Source: Gammaproteobacteria bacterium
GTDB lineage: Bacteria > Pseudomonadota > Gammaproteobacteria > Steroidobacterales > Rariloculaceae
Reading direction: 5' to 3'
DNA length: 46,259 bases
Assembly: GCA_003155415.1 (NCBI GenBank)
Contig: PMCP01000201.1
Location: 3,871-50,129 of the forward strand
The position numbers and the translations under genes were made by a program. A model generated the notes under the pieces. The model made no database searches. It was not told the DNA's origin and saw nothing but the letters and a program-made list of their open reading frames with translations. Every line of letters starts with the position of its first letter. Positions within the stretch are counted from its first letter, which is position 1. Positions 11,804-41,424 of the stretch are shown here, one piece after another.

Positions 11804-14167
11804 ATGCGAGACGTGCACGAAGCCGGGCCGGTCGACGACGCGCCGGGCGCACCGGGAATTCCGCCGACGTGGACGTCGAGCAACAAGGATCTCGTCGGCG
11901 CGAGCCTCGGCACCAGCCGCGTGTGGTTCACCGTGGGCTTTGGGATCGTCAACGAGGTCTACCATCCGCGCGTCGATATTCCGCAGATCCGCGATCTCGG
12001 TTTCATCGTCGCCGATGGCAAAGGGTTCTGGTGCGAGGTCAAGCGCCTGGAGGCCTATGAGCTCGAGCTGCCGAAGCCCGGCATCCCGGCGCCCACGATC
12101 GTGCATCGGCACGCGCGGTTCGAGCTGACGCTGCGAATCACGCCTGATCCACGGCGCGACGTGCTGCTCATCGAGGTAGTACTTCGCGGTGACGCCGACC
12201 TCAAACCTTACGTGCTGCTCGCGCCGCACCTCGGCGGCACGGGCGTGAACAATGTCGCTGCCGTCGGCAAGCACTACGGCAGGAACGTGCTGTGGGCCGA
12301 ACAGGGGCCTTTCGCATTGGCCCTCGCAGCGGCGGATCAAGCCCAGGGTGACGCGCTGGGTCGGCAAAGTGCCGGTTACGTCGGGTTCAGTGACGGCTGG
12401 CAGGATTTCAACGCGAACGGCGCAATGACCTGGGCGTACGCGCAGGCAGGTCCCGGCAACGTCGCACTCTTGGGGGAGCTTGCCCCCGAATGCGTCGTGG
12501 CGCTCGCGTTCGGGCCGTCGCGCGGCGCAGCCGCGACGCTCGCCGCTGCCGCGCTCGCACAACCGTTCGAGAACGTTTGGCGCGAGCATGTGGCCGCGTG
12601 GGCGGACTGGCACACGAGCTGCCACGACAACCTGGGAACGGGCGAGCCCGCGCTCGATGCACAGTTCGAGATCTCGCGCATGGTGCTGCGCTGCCACATG
12701 GACAAGACCTACCCCGGCGCCATGGTCGCGAGCTTGAGCATTCCCTGGGGCAACAGCAAAGACGATCGCGGTGGTTATCACCTGATTTGGCCTCGCGATC
12801 TCGTCGAGTGTGCGTCGGCGTTGCTGTGCGTGGGCAGCGAAACGGAAGCGAGAGACGTGCTGCGGTGTTTGATCGCCACGCAGCACGAGGACGGCCATTG
12901 GAATCAAAACCAATGGCTCGCCGGAGAGCCGTTCTGGCAGGGCGTGCAGCTCGATGAGACGGCGCTGCCGGTGATTCTCGCCGCGCTGCTGCACGAACGC
13001 GACGCGCTCGACGGCATCGCTGCCACGCAGATGGTGCGGGCAGCGTTGGGTTTCATCACGCGCATGGGGCCCGTGACTGACCAGGATCGCTGGGAGGAAA
13101 ATCGCGGCATCAATGCGTTCACGGTTGCCATGACCATTGCGGCGCTCGTGGCGGGCACGGCGTTCCTCACGGGTGATGAAAAGGAAGCCGCTTTCGAGCT
13201 GGCCGATTTCTGGAATTCCCGCATCGAGCAGTGGCTATACGCGCAGGGCACGTCGCTGGCCAAACAGGTGGGTGTCGACGGCCACTACATGCGCACGGCG
13301 CCGCCGGAAGCCCTCTTTGATCCGGAGGCGAGGCACCACTTGCTGCCGCTGAAGAATCGCGGCGACGAGCCGGCGCCGAGTGCGGACGCGCAAATTTCCA
13401 CCGATTTCCTGCAGCTCGTGCGGTGGGGTCTTCGGCCGGCGGACCACGCGTGCGTGCAAAGCTCCATCGCGGTCGTCGACGCGTTGCTGCGTGTCGATAC
13501 ACCGAGCGGCGCCGTCTGGCGTCGCTACAACGGCGACGGCTACGGCGAGCACGCAGACGGACGAGAGTTCGATGGCACCGGCACGGGCCGCGCGTGGCCG
13601 TTGCTGACCGGCGAGCGCGGTCACTACGAGCTCCTGGCCGGAAATGATCCGCTGCCGTTTCTGCGCGCCATGAGCGCAATGACGGGGCCGAACGGCATGC
13701 TGCCGGAGCAGGTGTGGGACGCCGAGCCGATTCCGTCGCGTCGGCTGTATCCCGGCAAACCGACGGGCTCGGCGATGCCGCTCGCGTGGACTCACGCCGA
13801 GTTCATCAAGCTCGCGCTATCGCGTGAGCGTGGGATCAGCGTCGATTGCCCGCGCGCTGTCTTCGAGCGTTACCGCGGTGGAATCTCGCTGCCGCGCACG
13901 ACTGTCTGGAGTGAGCGGGCGCCGGTCGTCGGCTTCGCTACGGGCAGCGACCTGCGCGTGAACTTGCAGGCGGAAGCCGTAGTGCATTGGCGTGCAGAGC
14001 GGGGCGAATGGCGAGACATCGCGACGCGGCCTGGCCTTCCAGGCGTTCATTGCGTCGTGCTCCCGACTCGCAGCTTAGCGAACGCGAGTCGCGTCGAGTT
14101 CACGTGGCAGCAGGGCGCCGCCGATGTGCCTGGCACCACCTACGAGGTGTACGCGCGAAATGACTAA
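11804..14167 (+). CDS. GH15 glucan 1,4-alpha-glucosidase (glucoamylase) with glucodextranase-type N-domain
   Basis: A 787-residue enzyme. Residues about 15-270 form the beta-sandwich N-domain of bacterial glucoamylases and glucodextranases (NEVYHPRVDIPQIRDLGF, APHLGGTGVNN). The GH15 (alpha/alpha)6 barrel follows. Recognisable pieces are GGYHLIWPRDLVE around residue 325, RWEENRGINAFT around 428-439 with the candidate catalytic acid, and LTGERGHYELLAG around residue 600 with the candidate base. No signal peptide is visible, so it probably acts in the cytoplasm on stored glycogen or imported oligosaccharides, releasing beta-glucose. It is the last gene of the kinase-gnd-zwf operon, which would consume that glucose. 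The weak point is the exact linkage specificity (alpha-1,4 versus alpha-1,6). Confidence 0.9.
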   Translation: MRDVHEAGPVDDAPGAPGIPPTWTSSNKDLVGASLGTSRVWFTVGFGIVNEVYHPRVDIPQIRDLGFIVADGKGFWCEVKRLEAYELELPKPGIPAPTIVHRHARFELTLRITPDPRRDVLLIEVVLRGDADLKPYVLLAPHLGGTGVNNVAAVGKHYGRNVLWAEQGPFALALAAADQAQGDALGRQSAGYVGFSDGWQDFNANGAMTWAYAQAGPGNVALLGELAPECVVALAFGPSRGAAATLAAAALAQPFENVWREHVAAWADWHTSCHDNLGTGEPALDAQFEISRMVLRCHMDKTYPGAMVASLSIPWGNSKDDRGGYHLIWPRDLVECASALLCVGSETEARDVLRCLIATQHEDGHWNQNQWLAGEPFWQGVQLDETALPVILAALLHERDALDGIAATQMVRAALGFITRMGPVTDQDRWEENRGINAFTVAMTIAALVAGTAFLTGDEKEAAFELADFWNSRIEQWLYAQGTSLAKQVGVDGHYMRTAPPEALFDPEARHHLLPLKNRGDEPAPSADAQISTDFLQLVRWGLRPADHACVQSSIAVVDALLRVDTPSGAVWRRYNGDGYGEHADGREFDGTGTGRAWPLLTGERGHYELLAGNDPLPFLRAMSAMTGPNGMLPEQVWDAEPIPSRRLYPGKPTGSAMPLAWTHAEFIKLALSRERGISVDCPRAVFERYRGGISLPRTTVWSERAPVVGFATGSDLRVNLQAEAVVHWRAERGEWRDIATRPGLPGVHCVVLPTRSLANASRVEFTWQQGAADVPGTTYEVYARND

Positions 14168-16789: not shown

Positions 16790-16827
16790 CTCGGTTGCGG
16801 CACGCGGGTGCCGGGACGAGGGTTTGC

Positions 16828-17616
16828 ATGTTCAGAAGGCAGTGCGGCTGGCTCGCGGTTGCGGCGGCGACGCTCGTAACCGCTGCGTGCACCGTGCCGC
16901 CGGGCGGTGAGAGCGCGGTTCCTGCCGTGTCGACCGACGACGCTACGCTTGCGGCGCAACTCTATGCGGGCACGTCGCGCACGCCGGCCGGATTTCTGGC
17001 GGATCCCGCGCCGCAGTCGTTCTCGCAAGTCGTTACGTATCATCTGAAGGCTCGCCAGCTCGATGCGAACGCCCCCACGCAGCACGAGCTATGCACCGAC
17101 GACTGGAACGAAGCGCTCGCGTGGTCCGAGACAGTGGCTCAGCAGGCGCCGACGTATCTCGATCTCGTCGGCAACACCTCGACCGAGCGCTTCTATGAGT
17201 TCGATCGCGAGCCACGCGGCGACCCGCAGCGTTACGAGCGCATGCGTGTGTTCCGGTGCGTGTACCTCGACCGCAGCGGCGTCGATCTCGATACGACCCA
17301 CACTTTCGCGGGCACGCTGAACGCGCAGCCGATCGACGCCGCCGCACTCGGCGGGTTGGCCGAATATCTGTGGGAGTTCAGCGAGTACGACAACGTGAAT
17401 CACGCAGTGGTCTCGAGCGCCGCGCGGGCCGCGACGACGGGCCTCGCGCACACGTTGACTCTCGCGAGCCTCGAGCGCGGCGCCACCTGCGACCGAGTGG
17501 TGCTGCGAGAGTGGACTCACAACGTAGATCCCACGACCGGTGAGCTCGGCTCGAACGTTGCCATGCTGCGGGAATTTTCCGTGCACCGCGTCGGCGACAC
17601 GATCGTCGGCTGTTAG
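16828..17616 (+). CDS. Putative lipoprotein of unknown function
   Basis: A 262-residue protein with a lipoprotein signal peptide (MFRRQCGWLAVAAATLVTAAC), so the mature protein is probably membrane anchored. The rest is soluble, with no domain I can name. It has three further cysteines (in HELCTDDW, VFRCVYLD and GATCDRVV) plus one at the C-terminus, possibly forming disulfides in the periplasm. I chose ATG 16828 because it directly precedes the signal peptide; the frame is open from 16795. The last four bases overlap the end of the convergent giant outer-membrane gene (TTAG at 17613-17616). Confidence 0.72.
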   Translation: MFRRQCGWLAVAAATLVTAACTVPPGGESAVPAVSTDDATLAAQLYAGTSRTPAGFLADPAPQSFSQVVTYHLKARQLDANAPTQHELCTDDWNEALAWSETVAQQAPTYLDLVGNTSTERFYEFDREPRGDPQRYERMRVFRCVYLDRSGVDLDTTHTFAGTLNAQPIDAAALGGLAEYLWEFSEYDNVNHAVVSSAARAATTGLAHTLTLASLERGATCDRVVLREWTHNVDPTTGELGSNVAMLREFSVHRVGDTIVGC

Positions 17617-20600
17617 CGGCTGCCTGGTCTCAGTCGCGACAGATCGAGGTCGCGCAGCGAATCCTGATCCGTCTTGAAGCGGAAGCGGATATACGGCCCG
17701 GCCGCCGTGTAACGGCTCGCGTCGAACTCCTCGTCGCGGAAGCCCTGGAAGTTGTAGCCGACCGATAACCACAGATTCTTCGCGGCATTGATGCCGACGT
17801 CGACGCCGATCGACTGCTCGCGCGTGCCGGCCGCAAACGAGTGCAGCTCCGTCGCGTGCAAACCGATGTCGAGCATCTTGGTCAGGTCGCGGCGCAGATC
17901 GATGCCGAGCAGCGATGTCCAGCCCGCGTAGCGCTCACCGTCGATCGTGCTGCGCGTGAACCGCGCGCCCACCTGCGTGCCGATCTCGAGTTTCTGGCCG
18001 ACTTGCCAGTGCAGATTCAGGTTGTTCACGAGGCGTGCAGACGCGATCGTCGAGAGCGAGCTCATGCTGTCGTTGCTTTCGAGGTCGAGGCGATCGAGCA
18101 TCACGAGCCGGCTGTCGATGGGGCGGTACGCGTACGAGAACCGCGTGTCGGCGGTGCGGCTCGCGCCTGCCGTTGCGTCGTTGTCGAGCCAGTGCGCGGT
18201 GAGCGAAAGCGCGCGGCCCGCCACCGGCTCGCGGAAGAAGCCGGCCAGGAACGCCCAGCGATCCGCGCTCTGCGCGTCGCGGCGCTCGAGCCGCGAGGTG
18301 AACGTCCAGAGGTCCGCTCGATACTGCCCGCCGACGAAGGTCGCCGTGTAGTCCTCGGTGATGTTGCCCGTGACGAGCGGCACGGTGGGGTTCGGTCGCG
18401 TCGCGATGGTGTTCGTGCCCGTCAGCGTCTGGCTCTGGTCGAGCCCCGCATCCATGGCCCAGTTCGAGCCGATGCGCCACGACTGCGTGAGGCCCATATT
18501 TGCGAACACGCGCGGACCGTTCTCGCTGAATTCGTGGCTCACACTCGACGCGAGCTGCGTGCCGGACCACGGGGCGCTGCGCACGCCAATGCGCGTCATA
18601 CGTGCGTCGATGTTTGCGCCGTTCGCGTCCTCGACTTCGCCGAACAACGTGGTCGCGGCGTTGAAGTGGTAATCGACGCCGAGCGTCGTTCGTTCCGGGA
18701 AGTCCAGGCTCTCGTCGCGGTGATTGACCGCCTGCTCCGTCAGCGCGCGCAGCGTGATGCGGTCGTTTGCGAGGTCGCGGCTGCCGCCGACCGACACGAG
18801 CTCGCTCAGCTTCTCGCCGCTCTGCGGACCCGCCGTCGCAGTTAAGTCGTCGACGACGCGGCGCACGCCGAAGCTTTCGGTGGCATCGTCGCTCTCGTGG
18901 CGCGCTTCTGCGCTCACGAGCTCGCGATCGGCGCCGGTCGTGAGGTTCTCCTGGCGGAACGCCTCGCCGCGCGCGGTCCAACGGCCCGCGAGCTTCGCGT
19001 GCGCATCCATGCCCACCTTGTGCGTTCCTGTTTCGGTCAGGAGCTGCTGGCCCACGCCGAAGCCCGGCTGCTGTTCGCGCGCATAGGCTTGAAGATCGAG
19101 ACGCTCCGTTACGCGCTTGATCTCGGCGACGTAGGCGCCGGCTTCGCCGCGCAAGGGGTTCGCCGAATCCGTTTGCGCCACCTCGGCGCGTACTTCGAGC
19201 GCGCCGGTCGGCCGGTAGCGCAGATCGGTGCCCGCGAGTCGCGTATCGCCGGTGGCAGAGCCCTCCTCGACGAGCGTGGCTCCGAGCTCGAGCTTGTCGC
19301 CGGCGAGTCGCGTCGTCGCGCGCGCACCGGCCGTCGTGCCACCGTCGTTGCGCGTCAGCGTCTCGTACTCGGCGACGATGTACACGGGATTGAACGCGGG
19401 GTCGCGCCCGGCGATGGGCTGTTTGAACGTGACGACGCCAGTCAGATAATCGATGCTGTAGTCGACGAAGCGCGCGAGCTGCTGCGTTTCGACGATGACC
19501 TCGCTGCGGATGCGGTCGCGCACTTCGATGCGTAGCTTGTCGCTGTTCGCGACGAGATCCGTGCGTGAGAGTTTGTACGGGCCCGACGTGCCGTCGCCCA
19601 GGAATTCGTCGCGGCCGTACGTTTCGCGGTTGTCCGCCGCGAATGCGCTGACTTGCACGTGCTTGCCAGCGAAATCGGCTTTGAGGCCCGTGAGGCTGCG
19701 GCTGTAGCGGCCGAGCTCCGTGAGCGTGAAGCCTGTTTGGAAGTCGCCAAACATCGCGGTCAGCGCGCGGCGTTCGATCTTCAAGTACAGCTTGCGCGTG
19801 GATGCCGCCTCGAAGCGCTGCTCGACGGCGTCGCCGTACAAGCTGTAGTAACGGTCCGGCTCGATCGTGCCGAAGAGCCGTGTCTCGGCTTCGGCTCGGT
19901 CGCGCGCGGAGTCGTACGCGATGGTCAGCAACGTGGAGCCTTTGACGCGGCCCTTCGCGAAGAATGCGATGCGGCCATCGCTCGAGTAACCATCGTCCAC
20001 ATCCGGCGGCTCGAGTGCTGCGTTCAGCTTCGTGTACGCGGCCGTGCCTTCCGCGATGCCGACGAGAATCCAATCTCGCTGCTCCGGCGTGAGCCACGCA
20101 CGGATTTCCTGTTCCTGACGCTCGTTGAAGCGCAGCCTCAAGACGACGGCGCCCGTCTGCACAGTGGGCTCTAGCGCGATGCGCACGAGGCCGTCATCGC
20201 CGACGGCGAACGTTGGCTCGCGATTCGCGGACAGGAGCGGATTATCGCGCAACGTAGCGACCTCGAAGGCGGTGCGGTAGGGCGGGTCGACTTTGTACGC
20301 GCCGAGCGTGCCGGGTCGCGCGGCCTGGCCGGACGCGTCGAACACGCGTAGCGCGAGCACGGGCTCGGTGCGGCCGTCGGCCGTTAGCAGCGATTGTTCC
20401 GCGACGAGCTCCGCCCGCACGCCGCCGCTGCCGTAGCGCATGACGCGCTCGAACTGCTGCATGACGCTGCCATCCGCCGCGTGCACGACGGCGACGAGCT
20501 TGTTGTCGCCGTCGACGAGGTCGACGCCGCGCCAGCGGCTCAACGCGACCGTCTTCGCCGCGTTCGTCTCCACGCCGTCGAAGTTCAGCGCGCTGATGGG

Positions 20601-23570
20601 ACGGCCGTTCACGGTGAGCGTCACGCGCTGCTCGGGCAAGTGCTCGATCGCGACGCGGATGCTCGGCACCGCCGGCGCGAAACCTTCCGCGGGCTGCAGC
20701 CATGCGACTTTCGGCTCCAGCGTCGAGAGATCGATCGGCGCCGGCGGCCCGTCGTCGCGCACGGTCGAGTCGCGTGCTGGCGGCGGGATGCCTTTGCGAG
20801 AGCCCTTGTCGAGCGAGCCAGCGGTCGCAACAGGCGGCGCTTCCGCCGTGCCGGCGGCCACGGCGAACGACTCTGCGGCGACGGTCTTCAGTCCGGTGAT
20901 TTCTATCTCCACGCGCCGGTTGCGCGCGAGGCTTGCAGCGTCCGTGCCGGAGTCGATCGGCTCTTCGGCGCCCCGGCCGTCGACGATGAACGTCGCATTC
21001 GGCAACGCCTTTCGCAGATCGTCGGCCACGACCTGCGCGCGGGCACGCGAGAGCGCGTAGTTGTCCGTGAACCGAGCGCGGTTTTTCGCCGCGATGGGCG
21101 TCTGATCCGAATGGCCGACGACCTGAATCGACACGTCCGCTACATCGCGCCAATTTGCCGCGATGCGCTCGAGCTCGTCGCGGTCGGCCGCGTCGATCTC
21201 GGTGGCGAGCGCGTTGAAGCGCGGCGAGAACGTGTAGCGTTCGTTTTCGCGCTGCGCGGCATCGCGGTGCACGACGTTGACGACGGGCGCCGTCTGCTGC
21301 GACGCCTCCGTCGGTGTCGAGAACCGCAGCAGCACGCGTACGGGCAAATCGGAAATGCCGGACGGAGCGCCCGTTTGGCGAGTGCTGAACGACAGCGTCG
21401 TGGCGGTGTCGGCCGCGAGCGCACCGAGCGTGAAGCGCAAGGCGCCGGCCACGACCTCGGGATCAGTGCTGCGCGCGTCGCCTACGCGTGCGTTGCCGTT
21501 CACGTACTCGAGCCCCACGGGCAGCAGCACCAGCAGCTCGGCGGAGGAGAGCGGCACGCCCTTCGCGGTGACGGTGGCCGCGTGGGTGAAACCTTCGGGC
21601 GCGGCAGTCGTAGTGAGGCCAAGTCGTGCGTCGCCCGTGGGAGCGGCGCGCCGGGCGAGCACGAAGTCGGCCGTCACGAGTCCGCCGCCGCGCGCGTCGA
21701 CGAACTGCGAGATCGCGTTGCCCGCGCGGCGCACCGGTGCGCCGCAGCGCAGCGGCTCGAGATCCACCGGCAACGTGATCGTGTCGAGCTGCGCCACGTG
21801 CGAACCGGGCGCGAGCCCCTCGAAATGGTACTTGCCTTCGTTGTCCGTGACGGCGTAGCGGCCGTCCTCGAGGTACACGCGCACGCCCGGCACGCCGGCG
21901 GCGCCTTCGAGAGGCGCGTCGCACGCGCCTTCGACCACGCGGCCGAGCAACACGGCTTTGCTCTGGAACAGCTCTTCGCGCAGCTGCACGGTGGCCGTCG
22001 CTTCGTTCGATTGAACGCCGTTGCCGGCCGCGGCTGTCGCGCGGTTCACGACTTTCTGATTGGCGCCGCCCGTGGCGACCACGGCCACGTAGTGCACGGC
22101 CACCCTCGAGCCGGCGGCCAATGTTCCGAAGCGGAATGTCAGCGTGCGGCCGTCGGCAGAAATTTCGGGCGCCAGCGGCGCGCCGGATTCGAGGCGCGCC
22201 GAACTTTTCTGGTAACGCATGTTCGGCGGCAGCACGTCCGTCACGACGACATCGCGCAGCGGCGCATCGCTGGCGTTGCGCGCGGCGACGACGTACGGCA
22301 CGAAGTCGCCGACGGTGGCGTACTTCGCCTGCGTCGTCTTGTCTAGCTGCAGCACGCTGCCCACGGGATCGAGCGGAATGTCTATCGCGGTTGCCGCCGT
22401 CGCGCTCACCGGTAGCGTGCCGCCGAACGAAGCCGGTGCGAGACGATAAGGTGCGCTCGGCAAGGTCTGCAGGTCGGCTTCTGCCACTTGCGACGGATAG
22501 CCGTAGCGTTGCGGCGGTTCGATCTCGAGGCGGTAGTCGCCAGGTGCCACGAGCGGAAAACGGAACACGCCGGCGGGGAACGAGTAGACGGTGCCGCCGG
22601 AGTCCGTCACGGGTTGGCCGGTGATGATCTCGGCGGGGAAGCGGCTCGCGCCGTCGTCGCCGAGCACGCTAGCGGTTGTACCGGTTGCGGCATTGACGAG
22701 GCGCACGTGCGCACCGTCCACGGACGCGCCCGTGCGCGAGTCGAACACGCGGCTGAATGGATCGACGAGTGCCGTCGCTGTGGCCATGTCGGCCGCGTTC
22801 GCTGGATCGGCGTACGTGGCGGCGAGCTGGCTGTCGCGTTGCACCTGCAGCACGCAGTCGCCGGGCGTTGCGGCATTCGCGCGCGTCTGCACGTAGCCGA
22901 CGAAGCGGCCGGAGTCGACCGCGGTTTCCTCGAGGACCACGGTCTCGGTATCGCCGCCCGCCGCAGTCAGTGTGAGGTCGATGTGATCGATCTTCGTCGA
23001 GTCGCGGTTGCGGTCGAGGTCGAGCACATCCAGGAACAGGGCTTCGCCGCCGTGCACGGTGTTCGTGATGCTGAGCGGCAGCGCCTGGCCGAGTGGCAAG
23101 ACGGTGCCGTTGCTCGCGAGCGGTGGTGGCAGCGGTGTTTGGCCCGCGGTGTTGCGGCACTCCGTGGTCGACGCGACCAGGTCGCTGCCGCGGCCGGGGT
23201 CTGTGCGCAGCAACGACAGCGCGGCGCGCGTGGGGGTCGGCGCCGCGAGCAGAGAGACTTCGTTGCTTTGCACCGTCGTCGCGCCGGCCGGGCCGACGAA
23301 GTCGATCAGCGCGCGATTGGTGATCACAGTGCCAGGTGCAGTGGCGCCGAGCGCGGTGGTCGCGATCAGGAAGGCAAAGAGGAATGCAAGAGTTCTCTCG
23401 CCAAGAACGCCAAGAAGGCGAAGAAACGGAATGAAAGAACTCGGGCGTGAGGAAACGGTGAGGGCGGAGCAGCTGTGTGCTGCTCCGCCCTGCCGGGAAG
23501 AGATTCTGACTGTCGGGCGCGGCGCGGTGCCGCGGGTTTCGCGGGGCCGCGCCGCTGCGGCCGCACCCAT
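17613..23570 (-). CDS. Giant outer-membrane protein: DUF11, prealbumin-like, OmpA-like and C-terminal beta-barrel domains
   Basis: A 1985-codon frame. A signal-like segment (RTLAFLFAFLIATTALGA) is at residues 58-75. It is followed by APGTVITNRALIDF, which matches the N-terminal motif of two neighbouring proteins, then beta-rich domains. A DUF11 repeat lies at about 405-527 and a prealbumin/SdrD_B-like domain at 537-600. An OmpA-type peptidoglycan-binding domain is at 775-890 (VVGHSDQTPIAAKNRARF, NRRVEIEI). From about 1165 the rest looks like a large outer-membrane barrel (YSLYGDAVEQRFEA, FGDFQTGFTLTELGRYSRSL, SFGVRRVVDD). It probably spans the outer membrane, binds peptidoglycan and displays or exports the DUF11 partners. 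The start is unresolved: ATG 23570 has no ribosome site and leaves 57 residues before the signal. Those codons run through a hairpin and a 9-bp repeat, with no ATG, GTG or TTG codon closer to the signal. Confidence 0.82.
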   Translation of the reverse strand: MGAAAAARPRETRGTAPRPTVRISSRQGGAAHSCSALTVSSRPSSFIPFLRLLGVLGERTLAFLFAFLIATTALGATAPGTVITNRALIDFVGPAGATTVQSNEVSLLAAPTPTRAALSLLRTDPGRGSDLVASTTECRNTAGQTPLPPPLASNGTVLPLGQALPLSITNTVHGGEALFLDVLDLDRNRDSTKIDHIDLTLTAAGGDTETVVLEETAVDSGRFVGYVQTRANAATPGDCVLQVQRDSQLAATYADPANAADMATATALVDPFSRVFDSRTGASVDGAHVRLVNAATGTTASVLGDDGASRFPAEIITGQPVTDSGGTVYSFPAGVFRFPLVAPGDYRLEIEPPQRYGYPSQVAEADLQTLPSAPYRLAPASFGGTLPVSATAATAIDIPLDPVGSVLQLDKTTQAKYATVGDFVPYVVAARNASDAPLRDVVVTDVLPPNMRYQKSSARLESGAPLAPEISADGRTLTFRFGTLAAGSRVAVHYVAVVATGGANQKVVNRATAAAGNGVQSNEATATVQLREELFQSKAVLLGRVVEGACDAPLEGAAGVPGVRVYLEDGRYAVTDNEGKYHFEGLAPGSHVAQLDTITLPVDLEPLRCGAPVRRAGNAISQFVDARGGGLVTADFVLARRAAPTGDARLGLTTTAAPEGFTHAATVTAKGVPLSSAELLVLLPVGLEYVNGNARVGDARSTDPEVVAGALRFTLGALAADTATTLSFSTRQTGAPSGISDLPVRVLLRFSTPTEASQQTAPVVNVVHRDAAQRENERYTFSPRFNALATEIDAADRDELERIAANWRDVADVSIQVVGHSDQTPIAAKNRARFTDNYALSRARAQVVADDLRKALPNATFIVDGRGAEEPIDSGTDAASLARNRRVEIEITGLKTVAAESFAVAAGTAEAPPVATAGSLDKGSRKGIPPPARDSTVRDDGPPAPIDLSTLEPKVAWLQPAEGFAPAVPSIRVAIEHLPEQRVTLTVNGRPISALNFDGVETNAAKTVALSRWRGVDLVDGDNKLVAVVHAADGSVMQQFERVMRYGSGGVRAELVAEQSLLTADGRTEPVLALRVFDASGQAARPGTLGAYKVDPPYRTAFEVATLRDNPLLSANREPTFAVGDDGLVRIALEPTVQTGAVVLRLRFNERQEQEIRAWLTPEQRDWILVGIAEGTAAYTKLNAALEPPDVDDGYSSDGRIAFFAKGRVKGSTLLTIAYDSARDRAEAETRLFGTIEPDRYYSLYGDAVEQRFEAASTRKLYLKIERRALTAMFGDFQTGFTLTELGRYSRSLTGLKADFAGKHVQVSAFAADNRETYGRDEFLGDGTSGPYKLSRTDLVANSDKLRIEVRDRIRSEVIVETQQLARFVDYSIDYLTGVVTFKQPIAGRDPAFNPVYIVAEYETLTRNDGGTTAGARATTRLAGDKLELGATLVEEGSATGDTRLAGTDLRYRPTGALEVRAEVAQTDSANPLRGEAGAYVAEIKRVTERLDLQAYAREQQPGFGVGQQLLTETGTHKVGMDAHAKLAGRWTARGEAFRQENLTTGADRELVSAEARHESDDATESFGVRRVVDDLTATAGPQSGEKLSELVSVGGSRDLANDRITLRALTEQAVNHRDESLDFPERTTLGVDYHFNAATTLFGEVEDANGANIDARMTRIGVRSAPWSGTQLASSVSHEFSENGPRVFANMGLTQSWRIGSNWAMDAGLDQSQTLTGTNTIATRPNPTVPLVTGNITEDYTATFVGGQYRADLWTFTSRLERRDAQSADRWAFLAGFFREPVAGRALSLTAHWLDNDATAGASRTADTRFSYAYRPIDSRLVMLDRLDLESNDSMSSLSTIASARLVNNLNLHWQVGQKLEIGTQVGARFTRSTIDGERYAGWTSLLGIDLRRDLTKMLDIGLHATELHSFAAGTREQSIGVDVGINAAKNLWLSVGYNFQGFRDEEFDASRYTAAGPYIRFRFKTDQDSLRDLDLSRLRPGSR
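23399..23425. repeat. Three 9-bp tandem units within the 5' end of the giant gene
   Basis: CGCCAAGAA, CGCCAAGAA and GGCGAAGAA follow one another. On the minus strand this reads as repeated CTTGGCG-type units. Similar runs are, from memory, common in intergenic DNA of unrelated bacteria. That would suggest the annotated 5' end of the giant gene is really intergenic. Confidence 0.5.
23461..23491 (-). terminator. Perfect 13-bp hairpin between DUF11 protein and giant gene body
   Basis: AGGGCGGAGCAGC, a five-base loop, then its exact complement. The minus-strand continuation (CACCGTTTCCTCACG) is pyrimidine-rich but has no clean T tract. It is therefore a partial terminator, attenuator or mRNA-stability element about 100 bases after the stop of the preceding gene. 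Confidence 0.55.
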
Positions 23571-23588
23571 CGTGGTCAGGGTAGTGCG

Positions 23589-24725
23589 TTAGTTGATCCG
23601 CACCCGGAACCGCACGATCGTGTTGCCGCCGGCCGCAATGTTGCCGAGCGCGGTGGCGTTCACGATCAACGAAGTTCCGTTGTTGAAGCAGCCGTCGCCG
23701 TTTGTGTCGGTGGGTGTTTCCACCACGCACGCCGCCGCGGCGCCGCCCACGATCTGCACGCTGTTCGAGCCGCCGTAGGCGCCCGTGACGAACGTGGTGT
23801 TGGCGGGCAGCGGGTCGCTCACGGCCACGCCGGTCGCAGCGGTCAGGCCGCTGTTTGCGACGGTGATCGCGTACTCGACCACGGCGCCCGGCACGGCGCG
23901 CGGGCTCGCGCTGCCGAACGGATCGCTGATGACGGTCGCCGCCTTCGTCACGGTCAGTGCAGCGGAGCGAACCGCGTATTGATCCGCGGCGCTTTCGGTC
24001 GCGTCGTTGCCGGCATCGCCGAACACGATTTCGACGGTGGCCGGATTGTTGGCGCCGGTGGATTGCACTTCGAGCGTGGCGCCATTCGACCCGGCCGTCG
24101 CGGCGCGGGCTTGCAGGCGCACGTTCGCGAACGCGTTGTTCGCTGTGCCGAGCGGAATGTTGCCGAGGATGAACACCGTGATCGACGCGCCAGGCACGAG
24201 ACGGTTGATCGCGGTCGCCGTCTCGGTGCCGTCGTAGGTGCGGTTACCGGTGGCGTTGCCGCCGCTGGCGTCCTCGTCTACCCGGATCTGCAGGTTCGGC
24301 AGTCCGACGTTGAAGTTGTCGGTGTTGCCGAACAGCACCGTGCTGACTTCTTCCGTGAGGGACAGCTGGTAGCCTTCCGCCGCGTTGCCAGTGTTCGTCA
24401 CCGTGTACGCGAGCACCGCGTTCGTCGCGCCGGGCGACGTGATCGTGGCGTTGCCAGACGACTCTGCAACCGTGAGGTTGATGATGTTGTCGACGACGAA
24501 GGTCGTACTCGTGCCCGCGTTCACGCCGGGAGTGGTGTTGCCGGTGGGCGAGCTCTCGATCACCGTTTGTGCAACACCGCCGACCGAGTAGTTCACCGAG
24601 GCGCGGTTCGCGATCGAGGAACCGGCGGGCGTCAACTGCGCGTACGCGGCGCTCCAGAGCGAGCCACATAGGGCCAGCGCGCTCGCGAGCGTAACCCGCA
24701 TACTGAGGCGGGCGAGGGTCGTCAT
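23589..24725 (-). CDS. Exported DUF11-domain surface protein (378 residues)
   Basis: A signal peptide (to AAYAQ, about residue 30) precedes the motif AGSSIANRASVNYSVGG, which is shared with two other proteins of the cluster. The first half is a beta-sandwich of the kind YTVTNTGNAAEGY. The second half, from ALTVTKAATVISD, is a DUF11 repeat ending in the strand TIVRFRVRIN at the very C-terminus. An aspartate/glycine-rich turn (PTDTNGDGCFNN) could bind calcium. There is no LPxTG, PEP-CTERM or barrel, so it is secreted or held by a partner. The 354-residue protein two genes upstream is a clear paralogue. A strong ribosome site (AAGGAG) precedes ATG 24725. It is the third gene of the operon, before the giant barrel protein. 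Confidence 0.82.
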   Translation of the reverse strand: MTTLARLSMRVTLASALALCGSLWSAAYAQLTPAGSSIANRASVNYSVGGVAQTVIESSPTGNTTPGVNAGTSTTFVVDNIINLTVAESSGNATITSPGATNAVLAYTVTNTGNAAEGYQLSLTEEVSTVLFGNTDNFNVGLPNLQIRVDEDASGGNATGNRTYDGTETATAINRLVPGASITVFILGNIPLGTANNAFANVRLQARAATAGSNGATLEVQSTGANNPATVEIVFGDAGNDATESAADQYAVRSAALTVTKAATVISDPFGSASPRAVPGAVVEYAITVANSGLTAATGVAVSDPLPANTTFVTGAYGGSNSVQIVGGAAAACVVETPTDTNGDGCFNNGTSLIVNATALGNIAAGGNTIVRFRVRIN

Positions 24726-24753
24726 TTCACTTCTCCTTGCTACTGACTAACCG

Positions 24754-24776
24754 ACGGCCGCGTCCGATGCGGCCGT
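24754..24776 (-). repeat. GC-rich 8-bp hairpin in the DUF11 operon
   Basis: ACGGCCGC (24754-24761) and GCGGCCGT (24769-24776) pair perfectly around a seven-base loop, in the 66-base gap between the 24792-25295 and 23589-24725 genes. No T tract follows on the minus strand. An RNA processing or stabilising element, or a partial terminator, is likely. Confidence 0.5.
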
Positions 24777-24791
24777 GCATGCGAAAACGGG

Positions 24792-25295
24792 TTACAGAAC
24801 GACGGCTCGGTAACGCACCATCAGCGTCTCGCTCGGGCCCATGGCTCGACCGAGCACGAAGCGGATGTACGAGTACTCGTCGGCGCGCGCCGTGCGCGTG
24901 CCGCCGTCGGCGGCGGAAACGGTCAGCGCTTGCGGCGCGGCGAACGATTTTCCGTCGAGCGAGAACTCGATTGCGGCGCCGGGGCCAAAGGCCGTGTCGC
25001 CGATGTAGTGCATGTGCTCAGGCACGGCGTTCGTGATCGCGACGTCGGCCGCGGGTTTCGCGCAGACGTTGCTCGCGACGATTGTCCACACCACCTGGTC
25101 GCCCGGCAGGACTTTGTTGATCGGCACGAGCCGCGTCGCGGATTTGCCGGCGTCGTCCACATACGACTGCGTGAGCTCGGCCGTGGTCTTGAGCTCGATG
25201 CAGCCGCGTTCTGCCGACTGGGCCGCGGCGGTTCCCGCCAGGATCGCGCTCGCGCCGACGGCGGCGGCCAATTGCCAAACGATTCGATTGCGCAT
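24792..25295 (-). CDS. Small exported DUF11-like protein (167 residues)
   Basis: A signal peptide (MRNRIVWQLAAAVGASAILAGTAAAQ) precedes a single DUF11-like beta domain. PINKVLPGDQVVWTIVASN matches the start of such repeats, ITNAVPEHMHYIGDTAFGPG matches the typical 'provisional failure of symmetry' middle strand, and the chain ends in ETLMVRYRAVVL. Two cysteines (GCIELK and NVCAKPA) may pair in the periplasm. The frame opens at GTG 25304, but ATG 25295 has AGAGGTG at the right distance, so I use it. It is the second gene of the DUF11 operon, lying 17 bases after the first. The function is unknown. A structural subunit or plug for the large barrel protein are both possible. Confidence 0.78.
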   Translation of the reverse strand: MRNRIVWQLAAAVGASAILAGTAAAQSAERGCIELKTTAELTQSYVDDAGKSATRLVPINKVLPGDQVVWTIVASNVCAKPAADVAITNAVPEHMHYIGDTAFGPGAAIEFSLDGKSFAAPQALTVSAADGGTRTARADEYSYIRFVLGRAMGPSETLMVRYRAVVL

Positions 25296-25312
25296 GGGGA
25301 ACACCTCTGTAC

Positions 25313-26377
25313 CTAGTTGATCGTCACTGCGAATTCGATGGTCTGTGCGCCGACTGCGAGCGTGAGGTCGCCGAGCGCGACCGTCACTGCGGGCGAGGGC
25401 GTCACCACGTACGCGCCGGTGTCGGCATCCGCCGCGTCCGTCAGCGCCGCGCCATTGCGCTTCAAGCTGCCGGCCACGTAAGTCGTGTTCGCGGGAATGG
25501 CATCGCGGAACGCGGCGCCCACGGCGGTGCCGCTGCCGGTGGCCGTCACGACGACGCGGTACGCGACCGTCGCGCCCGGCACCGGCTCGGCGCTGCCGAA
25601 CGTGTTCGTCACGGTCTGCGACTTCACGGCGGAAACGTTCACCGCGCCGACGAGATACTCGCCGTAGATCTGCGCCTGGCCGCCGCTGGTGCCGGCGATC
25701 GCGTCGACACCGCCGGTGCCTTGCCCCGCGAACACCGTGCCCGGCGCGCCCGTGCCGGTGCGCGCGGCGGCGTGCAGCTGGCTGCGGCCGCGAGTGCCGT
25801 CGGCCAATGCAGCGGGAATGTTGTTCAAGACGATCACGCCTACGTTCGCATCCGCTGCGAGCGTGGGGTCGTTGGTGCCGGCGACGTACGCCGTGTCTGC
25901 CGCGGACAAGTCGCCGCTGTTATCCGTGTCTATGTAGATGAACGGTGTGGCCGGCACCGGATCGAAGTCGTCGCCCACGAGCGCGCTCAAGCCGGCGAGC
26001 GCAAACGTCTCATTGCTGTTGCCGGTGTTCGTCACGCGAAACACGAGCGCCTTGTTCGTGGCCCCCGCGACCGTCGTGACGGTGGGACTCTGTAGCGTGA
26101 CGGTCACGTTCAGGATTTCGGCCACGGTGACGGACGTCGCGTTCGAGTTCGTGGACGTTGGCGTGCCCGCGACCGAGAAGCTGACGGTGGCGGTGTTTTG
26201 AATCGTCGTGCCGGCAGCCGTGCCAGCCGCATGCGCGCCGAACGGCAGTGCAGCCGTGAGCGTGATGACGATGATTTGCCATAACCGGTGGCTCGCATCT
26301 TGCGGCCAACCGATCGGCGCAGGCGTTGATCTCATCCGTGCGATCGATACCAGCGGTAAGTCGGGCGCATTCTGCAA
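25313..26377 (-). CDS. Exported DUF11-domain surface protein (354 residues)
   Basis: First gene of the minus-strand DUF11 operon. The signal peptide ends near GAHAAG and is followed by AGTTIQNTATVSFSVAG, the shared N-terminal motif. The layout copies the 378-residue neighbour: VTNTGNSNETFALAG, then an EF-hand-like loop DTDNSGDLSAAD, VIVLNNIPAA, a DUF11 repeat starting TFGSAEPVPGATVAYRV, and a C-terminal strand TIEFAVTIN. The calcium loop has Asp at positions 1, 3 and 12. The start is uncertain: TTG 26377 gives a long n-region, while ATG 26335 (MRSTPAPIG) still precedes the hydrophobic core and may be the true one. Neither has a clear ribosome site. Confidence 0.78.
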   Translation of the reverse strand: MQNAPDLPLVSIARMRSTPAPIGWPQDASHRLWQIIVITLTAALPFGAHAAGTAAGTTIQNTATVSFSVAGTPTSTNSNATSVTVAEILNVTVTLQSPTVTTVAGATNKALVFRVTNTGNSNETFALAGLSALVGDDFDPVPATPFIYIDTDNSGDLSAADTAYVAGTNDPTLAADANVGVIVLNNIPAALADGTRGRSQLHAAARTGTGAPGTVFAGQGTGGVDAIAGTSGGQAQIYGEYLVGAVNVSAVKSQTVTNTFGSAEPVPGATVAYRVVVTATGSGTAVGAAFRDAIPANTTYVAGSLKRNGAALTDAADADTGAYVVTPSPAVTVALGDLTLAVGAQTIEFAVTIN

Positions 26378-26524
26378 ACTCGCGCGCTGGTTGCTTGTGA
26401 TGCTCGTCTAGCTTTAGTGACTGGCGACTCAAGTTTCGAAAGAAACTGTCGAGTAGATCGCGAATTGTTATGTCCGATGCCAGACACTGCGCTCCGTTCT
26501 ACGCCCAAGCGACAGTAAGACGAA
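26378..26524. promoter_or_regulatory. Divergent control region of the DUF11 surface cluster
   Basis: This 147-base gap must hold the promoters of both the minus operon and the divergent 1001-residue gene. It is AT-richer than its surroundings. It contains the inverted repeat AGTTTC (26432-26437) and GAAACT (26442-26447), which is extended by CGAC and GTCG outside after a small bulge (26425-26451). The repeat could be an operator shared by both directions or a 5' mRNA hairpin. I could not assign -35 and -10 hexamers with confidence. Confidence 0.45.
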
Positions 26525-29500
26525 ATGAATCGCCTTCTCCTAGCGTGGGGTCTCCTGGCTCTGCTGCTCGCGCCCGCGTTTGCCGTGGCGCAACCCATCA
26601 CGCGTTTCGCCCGGTTCACGGGCAATATCAATTTCGTTGCGACCGGAGGTTCGTTGCGCACGCAATCGAACACCGGCGATCCGTGCGCGGTCGGAACGAC
26701 GAGCTCGCAGGCGCTCTCCGGAATTCCCGTCGGCTCCTCGATCGTTGCCGCGTATTTGTATTGGGGCGGATCGGGAGCGACCGCGGACACGAGCGTCACG
26801 CTGAACGGCTCGACGGTCACGGCCGCGCGCACGTTCTCGTCCACGTTCCTCGACACCACTACCGGCAACAGTTTCCCGTTCTTTGGCGGCTTCGCCGACG
26901 TGACGTCGCGCGTCACGGGCAACGGCACGCTCACGTTCGGCGGTCTCACCGTGAACACCGGCGCGCCGTTCTGTGCGAGCAGTGCCGTGGCGGCCGGCTG
27001 GGCCGTGATCGCGATCTACGGCTCCGCGAGTGAGCGGCTGCGTGCCGTGAACGTGTTCGACGGCTTGCAGTACTTTCGCGGCAGCGCCGTGACGTTGAAT
27101 CCGGACGGCTTCAGGATCCCGAGCTCGAACATCGATGGCCGCATGGCGATCGTCGCGTGGGAAGGCGACCCCGGCAATTCGACGGCACTGAACGGCTTCA
27201 GCGAAGCGTTGAGCTTCAACGGCAGCACTGTTGATGACGGCATCGTGGTGGCGGGCAGCGACCCCGCAGTGCAACCGTACGACGGCACAGTGAACTCGCT
27301 CGGCGTGGCGAACACTTATGGCGTGGACGTGGATACATTCGACGTGTCTACGCTGCTGTCTCCGGGCCAGACTTCGGCCACGACGCAGTTTTCTTCCGGC
27401 GGTGACCTCGTGCTGTTGACGGCGCAGGTCGTGAGCGCCACGAGCGAGCCCGTCGTCGACTTGTCGTTGACGAAGACGCACACCGGCAACTTCACCGTCG
27501 GCGCGAGCAACACCTATCGGCTCAACGTAACGAACGCGGCCGGCGTGCAGCGCGAGGACAACACGGTCACGGTGACCGACGTGCTGCCCGCGGGTCTCGG
27601 GTTCGTCTCCGGCGCGGGCACGGGCTGGACCTGCGCGGCCACAGGGCAGAACGTGACGTGCACGCATCCGCCGCCGCTCGATCCCGGCGCGTCGCTGCCT
27701 CAGTTGACGATGACGGTCACGGCGGCGGGCGCCGCCGCGCCGAACGTCACGAACACCGCGACGGTTTCGAGCGCGAGCTACGACGTCAACGCGGCGAACA
27801 ATGCTGCTAGCGACGCAACCGTCGTCGTGGGGCCGAATCTGTCGACGTCGACGAAGACCGTCGTCGATTCGAACGGCGGCGACGCGGATCCCGGCGACAC
27901 GCTGCGATACACGATCACTCTGCGAGAGACGAACGGTGTCGCGGCGAGCGGCGTGTCCGTCGTGGACGACCTCGCTTCCGAGTTCACGTCGCTCAGTGTC
28001 GTGAGTGTGCCGGCCGGCGCGACGAATTTCTCGACGAGCACCGGTGGTGCGAACGGCACCGGTCGCGTCGACGTTCGCGGCATCGGCATTCCGGCCAACG
28101 GCAGCGCGACGATCGTGTTCGACGTGCGAATCACTTCCGGCACTGCGCCCGGCACGCCGCTCAACAATTCGGCCACGATCACGAACCCGGGCGGCCCGGG
28201 CGCGACGCCGGATGCGCCGCAGTTGATCGTGTCGCCCTCTGCAATTCCGTCGTCGGGCACGAAACCCCTATATCTGCGTGGCTCGCCGTCGGCGGTGCTG
28301 TCGCGTACGCCGCCCGGCGCCGACGCAGCCGTGACGGTTGCGTTCGGCGCGCCGGTAACATGGACGTTGAGCCCGGCGCTCGCGCTGCCGTTGACCCTGC
28401 CGGCCGGCAACATCGCCGTGCCGCTGTGGCTGCGGCGCACGGGCACCGACAACACGCGCACGATTGTCGTGACGCTTGCGAACAGCGCGACGGGTGCGAT
28501 CGGCGCCGCGACGCAAACGGTCACGGTGCCGAACAGCGGTTCGCCGGTGCTGTCGACGTTCGTGATTGCGAACGCCGTGGCGCGAATATTTCCGGTGGGC
28601 TCGACGTTCAGCGTGACGCTGACCCAGACGGCGCCGACGGTGGTCGCGCGCTCGACGCTGTTGTACCCCGTAGGTGCGACGGCCGGCGACTACAGTCGCG
28701 TATCGCTGCCGAGCGCGACCGTGATCAACGTCGACAGCGTGCAGACCTTCAGCGCGGCCTACAACGGCGGCGCGGCGCTCGCGAGCTTCTATCCAGGCGA
28801 CACTGTGTACGTGCGCGCCACCGTGAGCGATCCGTTCGGCAACTTCGACATCGCGTCCGCAAACGTGTCGATCGTCGACACTGCGGGCACGGTGCGACTC
28901 AGCAACGCGGCGATGACCGTCGTCGCGAACCCGACCACGGCAACACGGATCTACGAGCTCGCGTACACGGTGCCGGCGGCCGGGCCGCTCGGCGGCTGGT
29001 CGGCCCGCGTAACCGGTGTCGAAGGCACGGAAGGCATCGTCACGCACACGCGCACGGCGGGGTTCACGGTCGTGCAGCGGCTGCCGGCGTTGCGCGTGCA
29101 GAAGACCGTGGCAGTGCTGACCGACCCGGTGCGCGGTTCCACGAATCCGCACCAGATTCCGGGCAGTGTGCAGCGCTACCAGGTCGCGGTCACGAACACG
29201 GGGACCGGTACCGTGGACGCGAGCACGCTCGTCATCGTCGATCCGATTCCTTCGGGCGCGGCGATGTATGTGTCGACAGCTGCGGGCACTCCGGTGGTGT
29301 TCGTCGATGGCAGCGTGGCGAGCAACCTTTCGTTCAACTACGCGGCGAACGTCTCCTACTCGAACCAGCCGGGCGGAGTCGCGCCCTTCACGTACGTGCC
29401 AGTGCCGGACGCGAACGGCTTCGACGCGAACGTCACTGCCGTCCGAATCGGCCCGACGGGTACGTTGGCCGGCGCATCGGGCGCCTCCCAGCCCAGCTTC

Positions 29501-29530
29501 ACGGTCGAGTTCCGCGTTCGCGTTCCCTGA
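26525..29530 (+). CDS. Large exported DUF11-repeat surface protein (1001 residues)
   Basis: A signal peptide (MNRLLLAWGLLALLLAPAFAVAQ) is followed by a beta-rich N-terminal module of about 300 residues (AAYLYWGGSGATADTSVTLNG, GWAVIAIYG, NVFDGLQYFRG). From memory this resembles the DUF3344-like sleeve found in front of DUF11 repeats, and I hold that loosely. DUF11 repeats begin at about residues 310, 437 and 853, separated by beta-rich Ig-like linkers (560-850). The last repeat (DPVRGSTNPHQIPG to the end in FTVEFRVRVP) matches the final modules of the two mid-size proteins on the other strand. There is no sorting signal or membrane anchor, so export beyond the inner membrane would need the barrel partner or another system. 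It is transcribed divergently from the operon, across a shared control region. Confidence 0.83.
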   Translation: MNRLLLAWGLLALLLAPAFAVAQPITRFARFTGNINFVATGGSLRTQSNTGDPCAVGTTSSQALSGIPVGSSIVAAYLYWGGSGATADTSVTLNGSTVTAARTFSSTFLDTTTGNSFPFFGGFADVTSRVTGNGTLTFGGLTVNTGAPFCASSAVAAGWAVIAIYGSASERLRAVNVFDGLQYFRGSAVTLNPDGFRIPSSNIDGRMAIVAWEGDPGNSTALNGFSEALSFNGSTVDDGIVVAGSDPAVQPYDGTVNSLGVANTYGVDVDTFDVSTLLSPGQTSATTQFSSGGDLVLLTAQVVSATSEPVVDLSLTKTHTGNFTVGASNTYRLNVTNAAGVQREDNTVTVTDVLPAGLGFVSGAGTGWTCAATGQNVTCTHPPPLDPGASLPQLTMTVTAAGAAAPNVTNTATVSSASYDVNAANNAASDATVVVGPNLSTSTKTVVDSNGGDADPGDTLRYTITLRETNGVAASGVSVVDDLASEFTSLSVVSVPAGATNFSTSTGGANGTGRVDVRGIGIPANGSATIVFDVRITSGTAPGTPLNNSATITNPGGPGATPDAPQLIVSPSAIPSSGTKPLYLRGSPSAVLSRTPPGADAAVTVAFGAPVTWTLSPALALPLTLPAGNIAVPLWLRRTGTDNTRTIVVTLANSATGAIGAATQTVTVPNSGSPVLSTFVIANAVARIFPVGSTFSVTLTQTAPTVVARSTLLYPVGATAGDYSRVSLPSATVINVDSVQTFSAAYNGGAALASFYPGDTVYVRATVSDPFGNFDIASANVSIVDTAGTVRLSNAAMTVVANPTTATRIYELAYTVPAAGPLGGWSARVTGVEGTEGIVTHTRTAGFTVVQRLPALRVQKTVAVLTDPVRGSTNPHQIPGSVQRYQVAVTNTGTGTVDASTLVIVDPIPSGAAMYVSTAAGTPVVFVDGSVASNLSFNYAANVSYSNQPGGVAPFTYVPVPDANGFDANVTAVRIGPTGTLAGASGASQPSFTVEFRVRVP

Positions 29531-41300: not shown

Positions 41301-41424
41301 GGCAACGCTCTTCACGCTGTTCATCGTGCCTTCGGTCTACAACCTCCTCGCACGACATACAGGCTCGCCGAACGCGATCGCTCAGCGGCTCGCGACGATG
41401 CGCACGGAAGTTTCGCCCGGTTGA
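38320..41424 (+). CDS. RND efflux pump, HAE1-type inner-membrane permease
   Basis: A 1034-residue RND permease with the usual twelve membrane segments and two large periplasmic loops. It starts with MWLSDTSVKRPVFATVLSLM. The proton-relay aspartate pair is in GLVVDDAIVVLENTHRR (around residue 400), and LGIAAKNG-type helix ten features appear as MLVGIAAKNGVLIVEFINQM. The length matches HAE1 drug/solvent exporters. Heavy-metal (CusA) signatures are not obvious. It forms trimers that take substrates from the periplasm or membrane and needs an outer-membrane channel encoded elsewhere. Which compounds it exports cannot be read. A Gly-rich run (GNRGGGGGGGQ, around residue 652) is an unusual loop. 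Confidence 0.95.
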   Translation: MWLSDTSVKRPVFATVLSLMLIALGALAFRDLTVREYPDTVAPTVQVQVNYPGASSEIVETRVTQVLEGELSGIEGVKTIRSSSRDGQSSITVEFNLNRRLDEAANDVRDRVSRVTRRLPDDIDNISVQKADADQQPVMWLTLAGDSMSMMELTDYMKRYLLDRFATIPGVSQINIFGSGGPSMRVWIDRVALAARDLTVTDIEGALNRENLELPAGKIQSKDRDFQVRIGRNYQTAEEFRDLVLAQGKDGHLIRLGEVARVQVGPRENQRWFRTNGKTTTGFGIIKQSTANVVEVLDRVKAEVERVNHDLPKGMNLITSGDDSLYIRAAIREIYYTIAITTALVGFVIFVFLGSIRATLIPLVTIPVCLMATFSVLSLFGYSINLITLLALALSIGLVVDDAIVVLENTHRRIETGEAPLLAAYNGTRQVAFAVIATTVVLVSVFAPVAFLKDSIGRVFAELAVTIAAAVTFSAVLALSLSPMMCSKLLRRHTTESRLTHTLDKGFDWLSNRYQSLLRKSLLAPWAAVVVCVAVGVGAYFLLQTIPREYAPSEDRGQFNASLQAPEGTSYERLQQSAQKVESYLQPYYDDGTIQRGVVSVPGFQPGQSGNVNVTLKPWGERKIATTDLLATLNKGWEDIPDMRITAFINNGNRGGGGGGGQPVQIVLGGSNYEELARWRDIVIAGAAANPGLSRLDSDLRETQPQVLVRVDTDRAASLGVSARSIGSTLQSLMSERQVTTYVVDGEEYDVVLMAEPKQRATYADLSNIFVRSERGQDLIPLSNLTKLEDMAGPSQLNRHNRMRAVTISANLVNGYTLGEALTWLEDLIHKDLPATAQISYRGESLDFKEASGALYFTFGVALFVVFLVLAAQFESFIHPLVIMVTVPLAVAGGLLGLWISGMTLNIYSQIGIIMLVGIAAKNGVLIVEFINQMRDRGMEFKEAIVEASRVRLRPVIMTAFAAVMGSVPLILAHGPGSASRQALGVVIFSGVSLATLFTLFIVPSVYNLLARHTGSPNAIAQRLATMRTEVSPG

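Follow-up and report, generated by a model that had tools for sequence, protein, structure and literature searches.

The DNA analysed here (the window) comprises 46,259 nucleotides of contig PMCP01000201.1 from a gammaproteobacterium of the Rariloculaceae (assembly GCA_003155415.1); the genome holding it has 3.9 Mb on 208 contigs and is 82% complete. Five adjoining open reading frames (ORFs) are the subject of this study, four on the minus strand, coding for D354, D170, D378 and a large base protein, and one on the plus strand, coding for a 1001-residue protein (Table 1). They lie where a preliminary description, made from the sequence alone, had placed a row of DUF11, OmpA and barrel genes, and its domain assignments were confirmed. 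Pfam finds DUF11 (PF01345) in all five products, above the cut-off in the proteins of 1985, 378 and 1001 residues and at or just below it in those of 170 and 354 residues; the base protein matches DUF11 at residues 407-526, CarboxypepD_reg at about 558-592 and OmpA (PF00691) at 785-885 (E 1.2e-8). A scan with NCBIfam likewise gave DUF11 in all five proteins, and DUF11, CarboxypepD_reg/SdrD_B-like and OmpA domains in the base protein. In the following, acceptor denotes a DUF11 domain without its last strands and donor an N-terminal segment that matches these missing strands.

Table 1. Features of the locus and its surroundings, in window positions; shaft-type and tip-type refer to the fibre proposed below.
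Feature	Position	Strand	Description
D354	26377-25313	minus	354 residues; TTG start, likelier start further in; signal peptide; shaft-type, donor and acceptor
D354 donor	26096..26224	minus	residues 52-94; GT.AGT.I.N.A.V...SN...V; carries conserved N61
D354 acceptor	25316..25633	minus	residues 249-354; DUF11 without last strands; K252, D292
D170	25304-24792	minus	170 residues; GTG start; acceptor only, without isopeptide Lys and Asp
D378	24725-23589	minus	378 residues; shaft-type subunit, donor and acceptor
D378 donor	24468..24632	minus	carries N40
D378 acceptor	23592..23957	minus	DUF11 without last strands; K261, D304
Base protein	23570-17613	minus	1985 residues; N-terminal donor, internal complete DUF11, OmpA domain, immunoglobulin (Ig)-like domains, giant beta-barrel (predicted)
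Base-protein donor	23217..23345	minus	residues 76-118; carries N85
Internal complete DUF11 of base protein	21951..22358	minus	residues 405-540; K411/D445/N509
OmpA-type peptidoglycan-binding domain	20916..21218	minus	residues 785-885
Predicted outer-membrane beta-barrel	17667..19988	minus	about residues 1195-1968; possible plug insert at about residues 1345-1382
1001-residue protein	26525-29530	plus	divergent DUF11 protein; variable tip-type, C-terminal acceptor, without donor
C-terminal acceptor module of 1001-residue protein	29084..29527	plus	residues 854-1001; K860, D906
Calcium-loop-like motif of D354	25910-25930		residues 150-156; DTDNSGD
273-residue protein	16795-17616		lipobox-like signal peptide; convergent with base gene
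AcrB-type RND (resistance-nodulation-division) transporter	38320-41424		
Glucodextranase-type GH15 (glycoside hydrolase family 15) enzyme	11804-14167		

A conserved four-gene operon with a variable partner

Two peptide patterns, scanned against 84,980 species genomes, yielded 110 relatives; in the search for related loci a single protein as query gave no match, and an alignment as query gave 110. Full-length relatives of the base protein with 40-45% identity are spread over several families within its own order, where the set D354-D170-D378-base adjoins them, and the set is found again in other orders of the class. Relatives occur in Steroidobacter, Povalibacter uvarum, Woeseiaceae, Sphingopyxis, Sphingomonas, Novosphingobium, Erythrobacter and Qipengyuania as well as in metagenome-assembled genomes of Nitrospirota. 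Gene order was counted in those 57 loci whose upstream DNA extends over 3.8 kb or more. The exact order D354-D170-D378-base, on one strand, was present in 51 of them, D170 in all 57 and D378 in 56; in two of the exceptions the first gene is merely labelled D378-like. Since order and orientation are kept in so many distant loci, the gene cluster is not a product of chance, and the four minus-strand genes form an operon. Conservation of gene order had been set beforehand as the observation on which the idea of a coherent five-gene cluster should stand or fall; it holds for these four genes and does not extend to the fifth. In the relatives the gene of the 1001-residue protein is often absent, of other length or located elsewhere in the neighbourhood, and full-length relatives were found in a few near genomes (loci L108, L151, L178 and L186). 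Proteins of 230-1671 residues that share its last 150 residues lie near many of the operons. A five-gene unit was therefore rejected, and the 1001-residue gene is a variable partner of the four-gene operon.

Three further observations concern this operon. A solitary D170 paralogue (G000:C164, locus L208, 12370-12999) stands at a place where D354, D378 and the base gene are missing, the full operon being present in the window. It is flanked by a homologue of a 615-residue gene on one side and by helicase-like and TsaB-like genes on the other, and the same flanking genes border the four-gene operon in the relatives L040, L042 and L044; this suggests that the set was lost or relocated and D170 left behind. 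Five loci (L049, L050, L051, L055 and L057) have two-gene relatives, in which a giant protein with multiple DUF11 domains (at least 1900-2240 residues) stands beside an OmpA/barrel protein of about 1700-1840 residues without N-terminal donor, and which look like the same design in unsplit form. In Steroidobacter-type genomes and others nearby (L039, L109, L110, L113, L147, L151, L178 and L186), relatives of the 273-residue protein gene moreover adjoin the base gene.

DUF11 domains are split into donors and acceptors

The chains of D354 and D378 terminate immediately behind a beta strand (F.V.I-N/D/Q, followed by the stop codon) at one shared alignment column, and Pfam matches them to DUF11 only as far as position 54-63 of 114. 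D170 likewise ends directly after a beta strand, and no LPXTG-type C-terminal sorting signal was found in any of these three proteins. When a profile of the acceptors was compared with the complete internal DUF11 domain of the base protein, the two matched (E 2e-14) over only the first 96 of 137 columns, about 40 columns short of the end. At their other end D354 and D378 open with the segment GT.aGT.I.N.A.V.Y...G....SN...V.V, a few residues past the likely signal-peptide cleavage site as judged by eye, and the base protein starts with a segment of the same type. In the multi-DUF11 proteins of related loci a donor-like segment comes after each acceptor-like stretch.

Virtual fusions of acceptors with donors extended the Pfam match to position 111 of the 114 positions of the hidden Markov model in two pairs and to 98 in one, and shuffled donors scored below the real ones. 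As the fusion test is weak by itself, a tail profile was used whose only training material was what comes after acceptors within the giant DUF11 proteins from other loci. Applied to 1266 ORFs, this profile gave 73 hits at E<=1, of which 64 lay at the N-terminus of D354, of D378 or of the base protein; five of the others followed internal acceptors, two were N-termini of unclassified ORFs and two lay elsewhere. At the same threshold neither D170 nor reversed decoys were hit.

Both halves were then tallied over the full ORFs of 80 loci, with profiles built partly from these same sequences. An N-terminal donor was found in D354 (47/47), D378 (57/57) and the base protein (60/65) and in no D170 (0/47), a C-terminal acceptor in D354 (47/47), D378 (53/57) and D170 (44/47) and in no base protein (0/65). 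The 23 tip-type relatives of 230-1671 residues all end in an acceptor, and none has an N-terminal donor. Judged by these profiles, the base protein carries only a donor, D170 and the tip type carry only an acceptor, and D354 and D378 carry both. If each chain completed itself, the base protein's donor would be left without a partner, as would the acceptors found in D170 and in the tip-type proteins, so that the leftovers balance only between chains.

The isopeptide triad is divided between the two halves

The DUF11 domain was renamed CLIPPER in 2025, and the structure 9IFR contains an intramolecular bond between Lys715 and Asn806 with Asp748 as the third residue; some DUF11 domains are without an isopeptide bond, and a split form of CLIPPER is not discussed (PMC12617251). 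From the sequence pattern and structural alignment we assume that the equivalents of this triad are present in the proteins studied here. Counted without gaps, the Lys and Asp of the acceptors are conserved in D354 (K252 56/57, D292 57/58), D378 (K261 79/79, D304 78/78) and the tip type (K860 and D906, 23/24), the Asn of the donors in D354 (N61, 51/54), D378 (N40, 74/75) and the base protein (N85, 72/75). The complete internal DUF11 of the base protein has all three residues in one domain (K411 81/88, D445 85/88, N509 80/87). The triad is thus present as in the DUF11/CLIPPER family, but the Asn lies outside the domain, on a segment at the N-terminus. In D170 a conserved Lys is lacking, and Asn-Pro stands where the Asp would be. 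If the domain is formed between chains, the Lys-Asn bond should form between chains, too. A fibre held together by donor strands alone, in which Lys-Asn bonds are not formed or stabilise internal domains only, would suit those DUF11 domains that have no bond (PMC12617251) and D170, which is without Lys and Asp and yet is the most constant partner. We regard it as rather unlikely because the three triad residues rank with the best-conserved positions of the shaft proteins and are divided between their C- and N-termini.

Model of the joint between D378 and the base protein

The D378 and base genes are in the same frame, 18 nucleotides apart. A read-through chain of D378 (28-378), linker and base protein (1-300), in which the stop codon was read as Ser, was modelled with AlphaFold2 from an alignment of 26 rows; an alignment for a triple read-through was set aside, as its D170 rows fell on D378. 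The model reached a predicted local distance difference test score (pLDDT) of 82.6 and a predicted template modelling score (pTM) of 0.66; its one poor part is the linker together with the signal peptide (354-431). VIA-align ranked pilin-type domains first: BcpA (3kpt) matched model residues 229-469 with Z 13.7 and a root mean square deviation (rmsd) of 2.5 over 127 residues, and CLIPPER (9ifr) matched residues 225-468 with Z 11.6 over 121 of 123 residues. Since the acceptor ends at model residue 352 and the linker extends to about 433, both matches depend on residues 434-469, the donor of the base protein, as the missing strands. The model predicts that completion of D378 by the base donor is compatible with the fold; it concerns this compatibility rather than an intermolecular exchange.

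These data also bear on self-complementation, a circular permutation in which the N-terminal segment folds into the C-terminal DUF11 domain of its own chain and the proteins are monomers of the surface or periplasm. D354 and D378 do carry both halves, and fusing D354 to itself stretches its DUF11 match to 4-111 of 114. Yet the barrel protein has a donor without C-terminal acceptor, D170 and the tip types have acceptors without donor, and in the read-through model the missing-strand place of D378 is occupied by the base donor and not by its own. We therefore judge self-complementation to be improbable, and completion between chains is preferred in what follows.

The base protein and its predicted barrel

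Residues of about 900-1985 of the base protein have no match to a Pfam or NCBIfam family. Residues 945-1985 were modelled with AlphaFold2 (24 rows; pLDDT 80.9, pTM 0.68), and strands were assigned with DSSP. From about residue 1195 onwards the model shows an unbroken series of long beta strands, more than 30 in number, apart from an insert of short strands that follows the first six or so. This supports the prediction of an outer-membrane barrel, which the preliminary description had placed near the C-terminus and whose absence after residue 1165 in a structure prediction would have counted against its idea. By VIA-align the best matches were the FimD usher (Z 17.1, 16.5 and 16.3), SprA (15.8), SlpA (15.6) and PapC (13.5), with porins at 10-12; by Foldseek the Deinococcus SlpA complex was best, and SprA was also among the first. 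This region is predicted to form a barrel of very large size, possibly with a plug, of the type seen in ushers, SprA and SlpA.

Two other functions of such a barrel have to be considered. It could be an export pore for the DUF11 proteins, similar to SprA of the type IX secretion system (T9SS) or to two-partner systems, without any fibre. Its size, its insert and the similarity to SprA in both searches fit this assumption, but the complementary truncations and the N-terminal placement of the donors are left unexplained, and we consider it very unlikely. The protein could also be an SlpA-like envelope scaffold that ties the outer membrane to peptidoglycan, with the DUF11 proteins as a surface coat. 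SlpA as best Foldseek match (VIA-align Z 15.6) and the OmpA domain speak for such a scaffold; the split partner domains are again unexplained and the variability of the tip type suggests adhesion, so that this explanation appears extremely unlikely.

A donor-strand fibre as the proposed function

We consider it probable that the operon encodes a donor-strand-complemented surface fibre, presumably locked by Lys-Asn bonds, with D354 and D378 as shaft, the 1001-type protein as tip and the 1985-residue protein as base. All subunits would be exported through Sec. D354 and D378 would polymerise in that the two N-terminal strands of one subunit enter the acceptor of its neighbour and supply its last two strands, and a Lys-Asn bond between the chains would form spontaneously at each D354, D378 or tip-type joint. 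The 1001-type protein would be located at the distal tip, capping the fibre with its variable N-terminal part, and the N-terminal donor of the base protein would take the last free acceptor. The OmpA domain of the base protein would hold peptidoglycan, and the barrel would span the outer membrane, probably as the exit pore. D170, whose acceptor is without Lys and Asp, could accept a strand and not lock it; it may be a non-covalent initiator, a cap or a donor-strand chaperone. The assignments of tip and base are derived from counting donors and acceptors, as in chaperone-usher pili and archaeal threads (PMC9715654). The middle domain of D354 has a conserved, calcium-loop-like motif D.D.SGD, through which calcium may stiffen the protein.

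The preliminary description had proposed a surface layer, adhesin or export system of unspecified kind around the barrel protein. A coherent and conserved surface system is retained in outline. The complementary truncation of the DUF11 proteins and the match of the N-terminal segments to the missing strands had been overlooked, as had the Lys, Asp and Asn positions, all of which are at least 94% conserved on the shaft, base and tip-type halves; the split domains and the triad now point to a donor-strand fibre, probably locked by isopeptide bonds. That the DUF11 proteins have neither sorting signal nor anchor would be explained if they attach to the N-terminus of the base protein.

Several observations weigh against this fibre. 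In hhalign the donor aligned to the right place of the internal DUF11 of the base protein (columns 105-131), however with an E of 0.25, no better than background tiles. The virtual fusion of D378 with the base donor gave a Pfam match at 12-65 only, and across the fusions the score changed by -2.5 to +2.7 bits, which is little or no gain. PDB sequence profiles of fusion and acceptor gave no convincing relative. The read-through model is a single chain that sets the donor after the acceptor, as in an ordinary DUF11 domain, and this favours the result obtained. As to the barrel, its rmsd to FimD is 9 Å, FimD and SprA are only 1.3 Z apart, and barrel folds match one another freely. No dedicated chaperone was seen, and the model accounts neither for the existence of two different shaft-type proteins nor for what D170 does.

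Relation to known systems

Donor-strand pili of Gram-negative bacteria employ either a chaperone-usher pair or, in Bacteroidales, a protease-triggered exchange. With chaperone-usher pili (FimA/FimD, CupE) the proposed fibre would share an incomplete Ig-like subunit that is completed by the N-terminal strand of the next one, an acceptor-only tip and an outer-membrane barrel at the base, FimD being the best structural match of the barrel model. However, those pili donate one strand, whereas here it would be two, with the DUF11/CLIPPER fold and a Lys/Asp/Asn triad across the joint; unlike ushers, the base protein itself carries a donor and an OmpA anchor and has more predicted barrel strands than FimD. 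The usher family PF00577 was found neither in the barrel protein nor in the 82% complete genome, and the PapD/FimC-type chaperone family PF00345 neither in this genome nor in the operon; membership in the chaperone-usher pathway was therefore rejected. SprA and Deinococcus SlpA are likewise very large single-chain barrels with extra domains, and their folds match. Their gene context is unlike that of the base protein, and a match to the SprA family was absent in the Pfam and NCBIfam scans, so that the similarity is one of fold only. By the tests run, the system does not belong to the chaperone-usher, sortase or type IX families; by analogy, it would work like a donor-strand pilus.

The archaeal threads (Saci_0406, PMC9715654) and TasA also have a mature N-terminus that donates a strand without a chaperone-usher pathway; no sequence relation to them was found and none was expected. 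For the threads, isopeptide bonds between subunits and a donor-only cap protein, Saci_0405, have been proposed (PMC9715654). Their bond runs from the amine of an N-terminal Asp to an Asn in a different subunit, whereas here Lys and Asn of a split CLIPPER domain would be joined, and threads are without an outer-membrane base. CLIPPER fibrillar adhesins (PMC12617251, 9IFR) share the domain, the triad and tandem DUF11 stalks, and include an adhesin with an OmpA-type anchor, but their domains are complete and the bond lies within one chain, while a split domain would join chains. The DUF11 grappling hooks GhlA and GhpA (PMC13319060) are single giant chains in which the same domain is unsplit. SpyTag/SpyCatcher pairs (PMC5487036) resemble the halves described here as a split isopeptide domain of peptide and catcher that joins covalently; they were engineered from CnaB, whereas here a natural CnaA-like (CLIPPER) pair would serve assembly. 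Neither the operon nor a natural split CLIPPER is described in the literature searched, a search outside which most subscription papers and preprints lay.

Whether the operon represents a class of Gram-negative pilus of its own, without PapD-type chaperone, self-locking via split CLIPPER tag/catcher pairs and with an usher-like protein as pore, base and anchor, we rate as an even chance. If it does, it would constitute a further widespread route to such fibres that uses neither chaperone-usher nor protease-triggered exchange and has covalently locked joints. Environmental bacteria that are common (Steroidobacter, Woeseiaceae, Sphingopyxis, Novosphingobium, Erythrobacter) would then have a further class of surface appendage, DUF11 proteins whose annotation reads unknown would be assigned a function, and natural tag/catcher pairs would become available. 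The system is open to direct tests in cultured strains, for instance Povalibacter uvarum DSM 26723.

Other genes of the window

Elsewhere in the window the RND transporter is an ordinary member of its type, as is the GH15 enzyme, whose gene adjoins that of a glucose-6-phosphate dehydrogenase.

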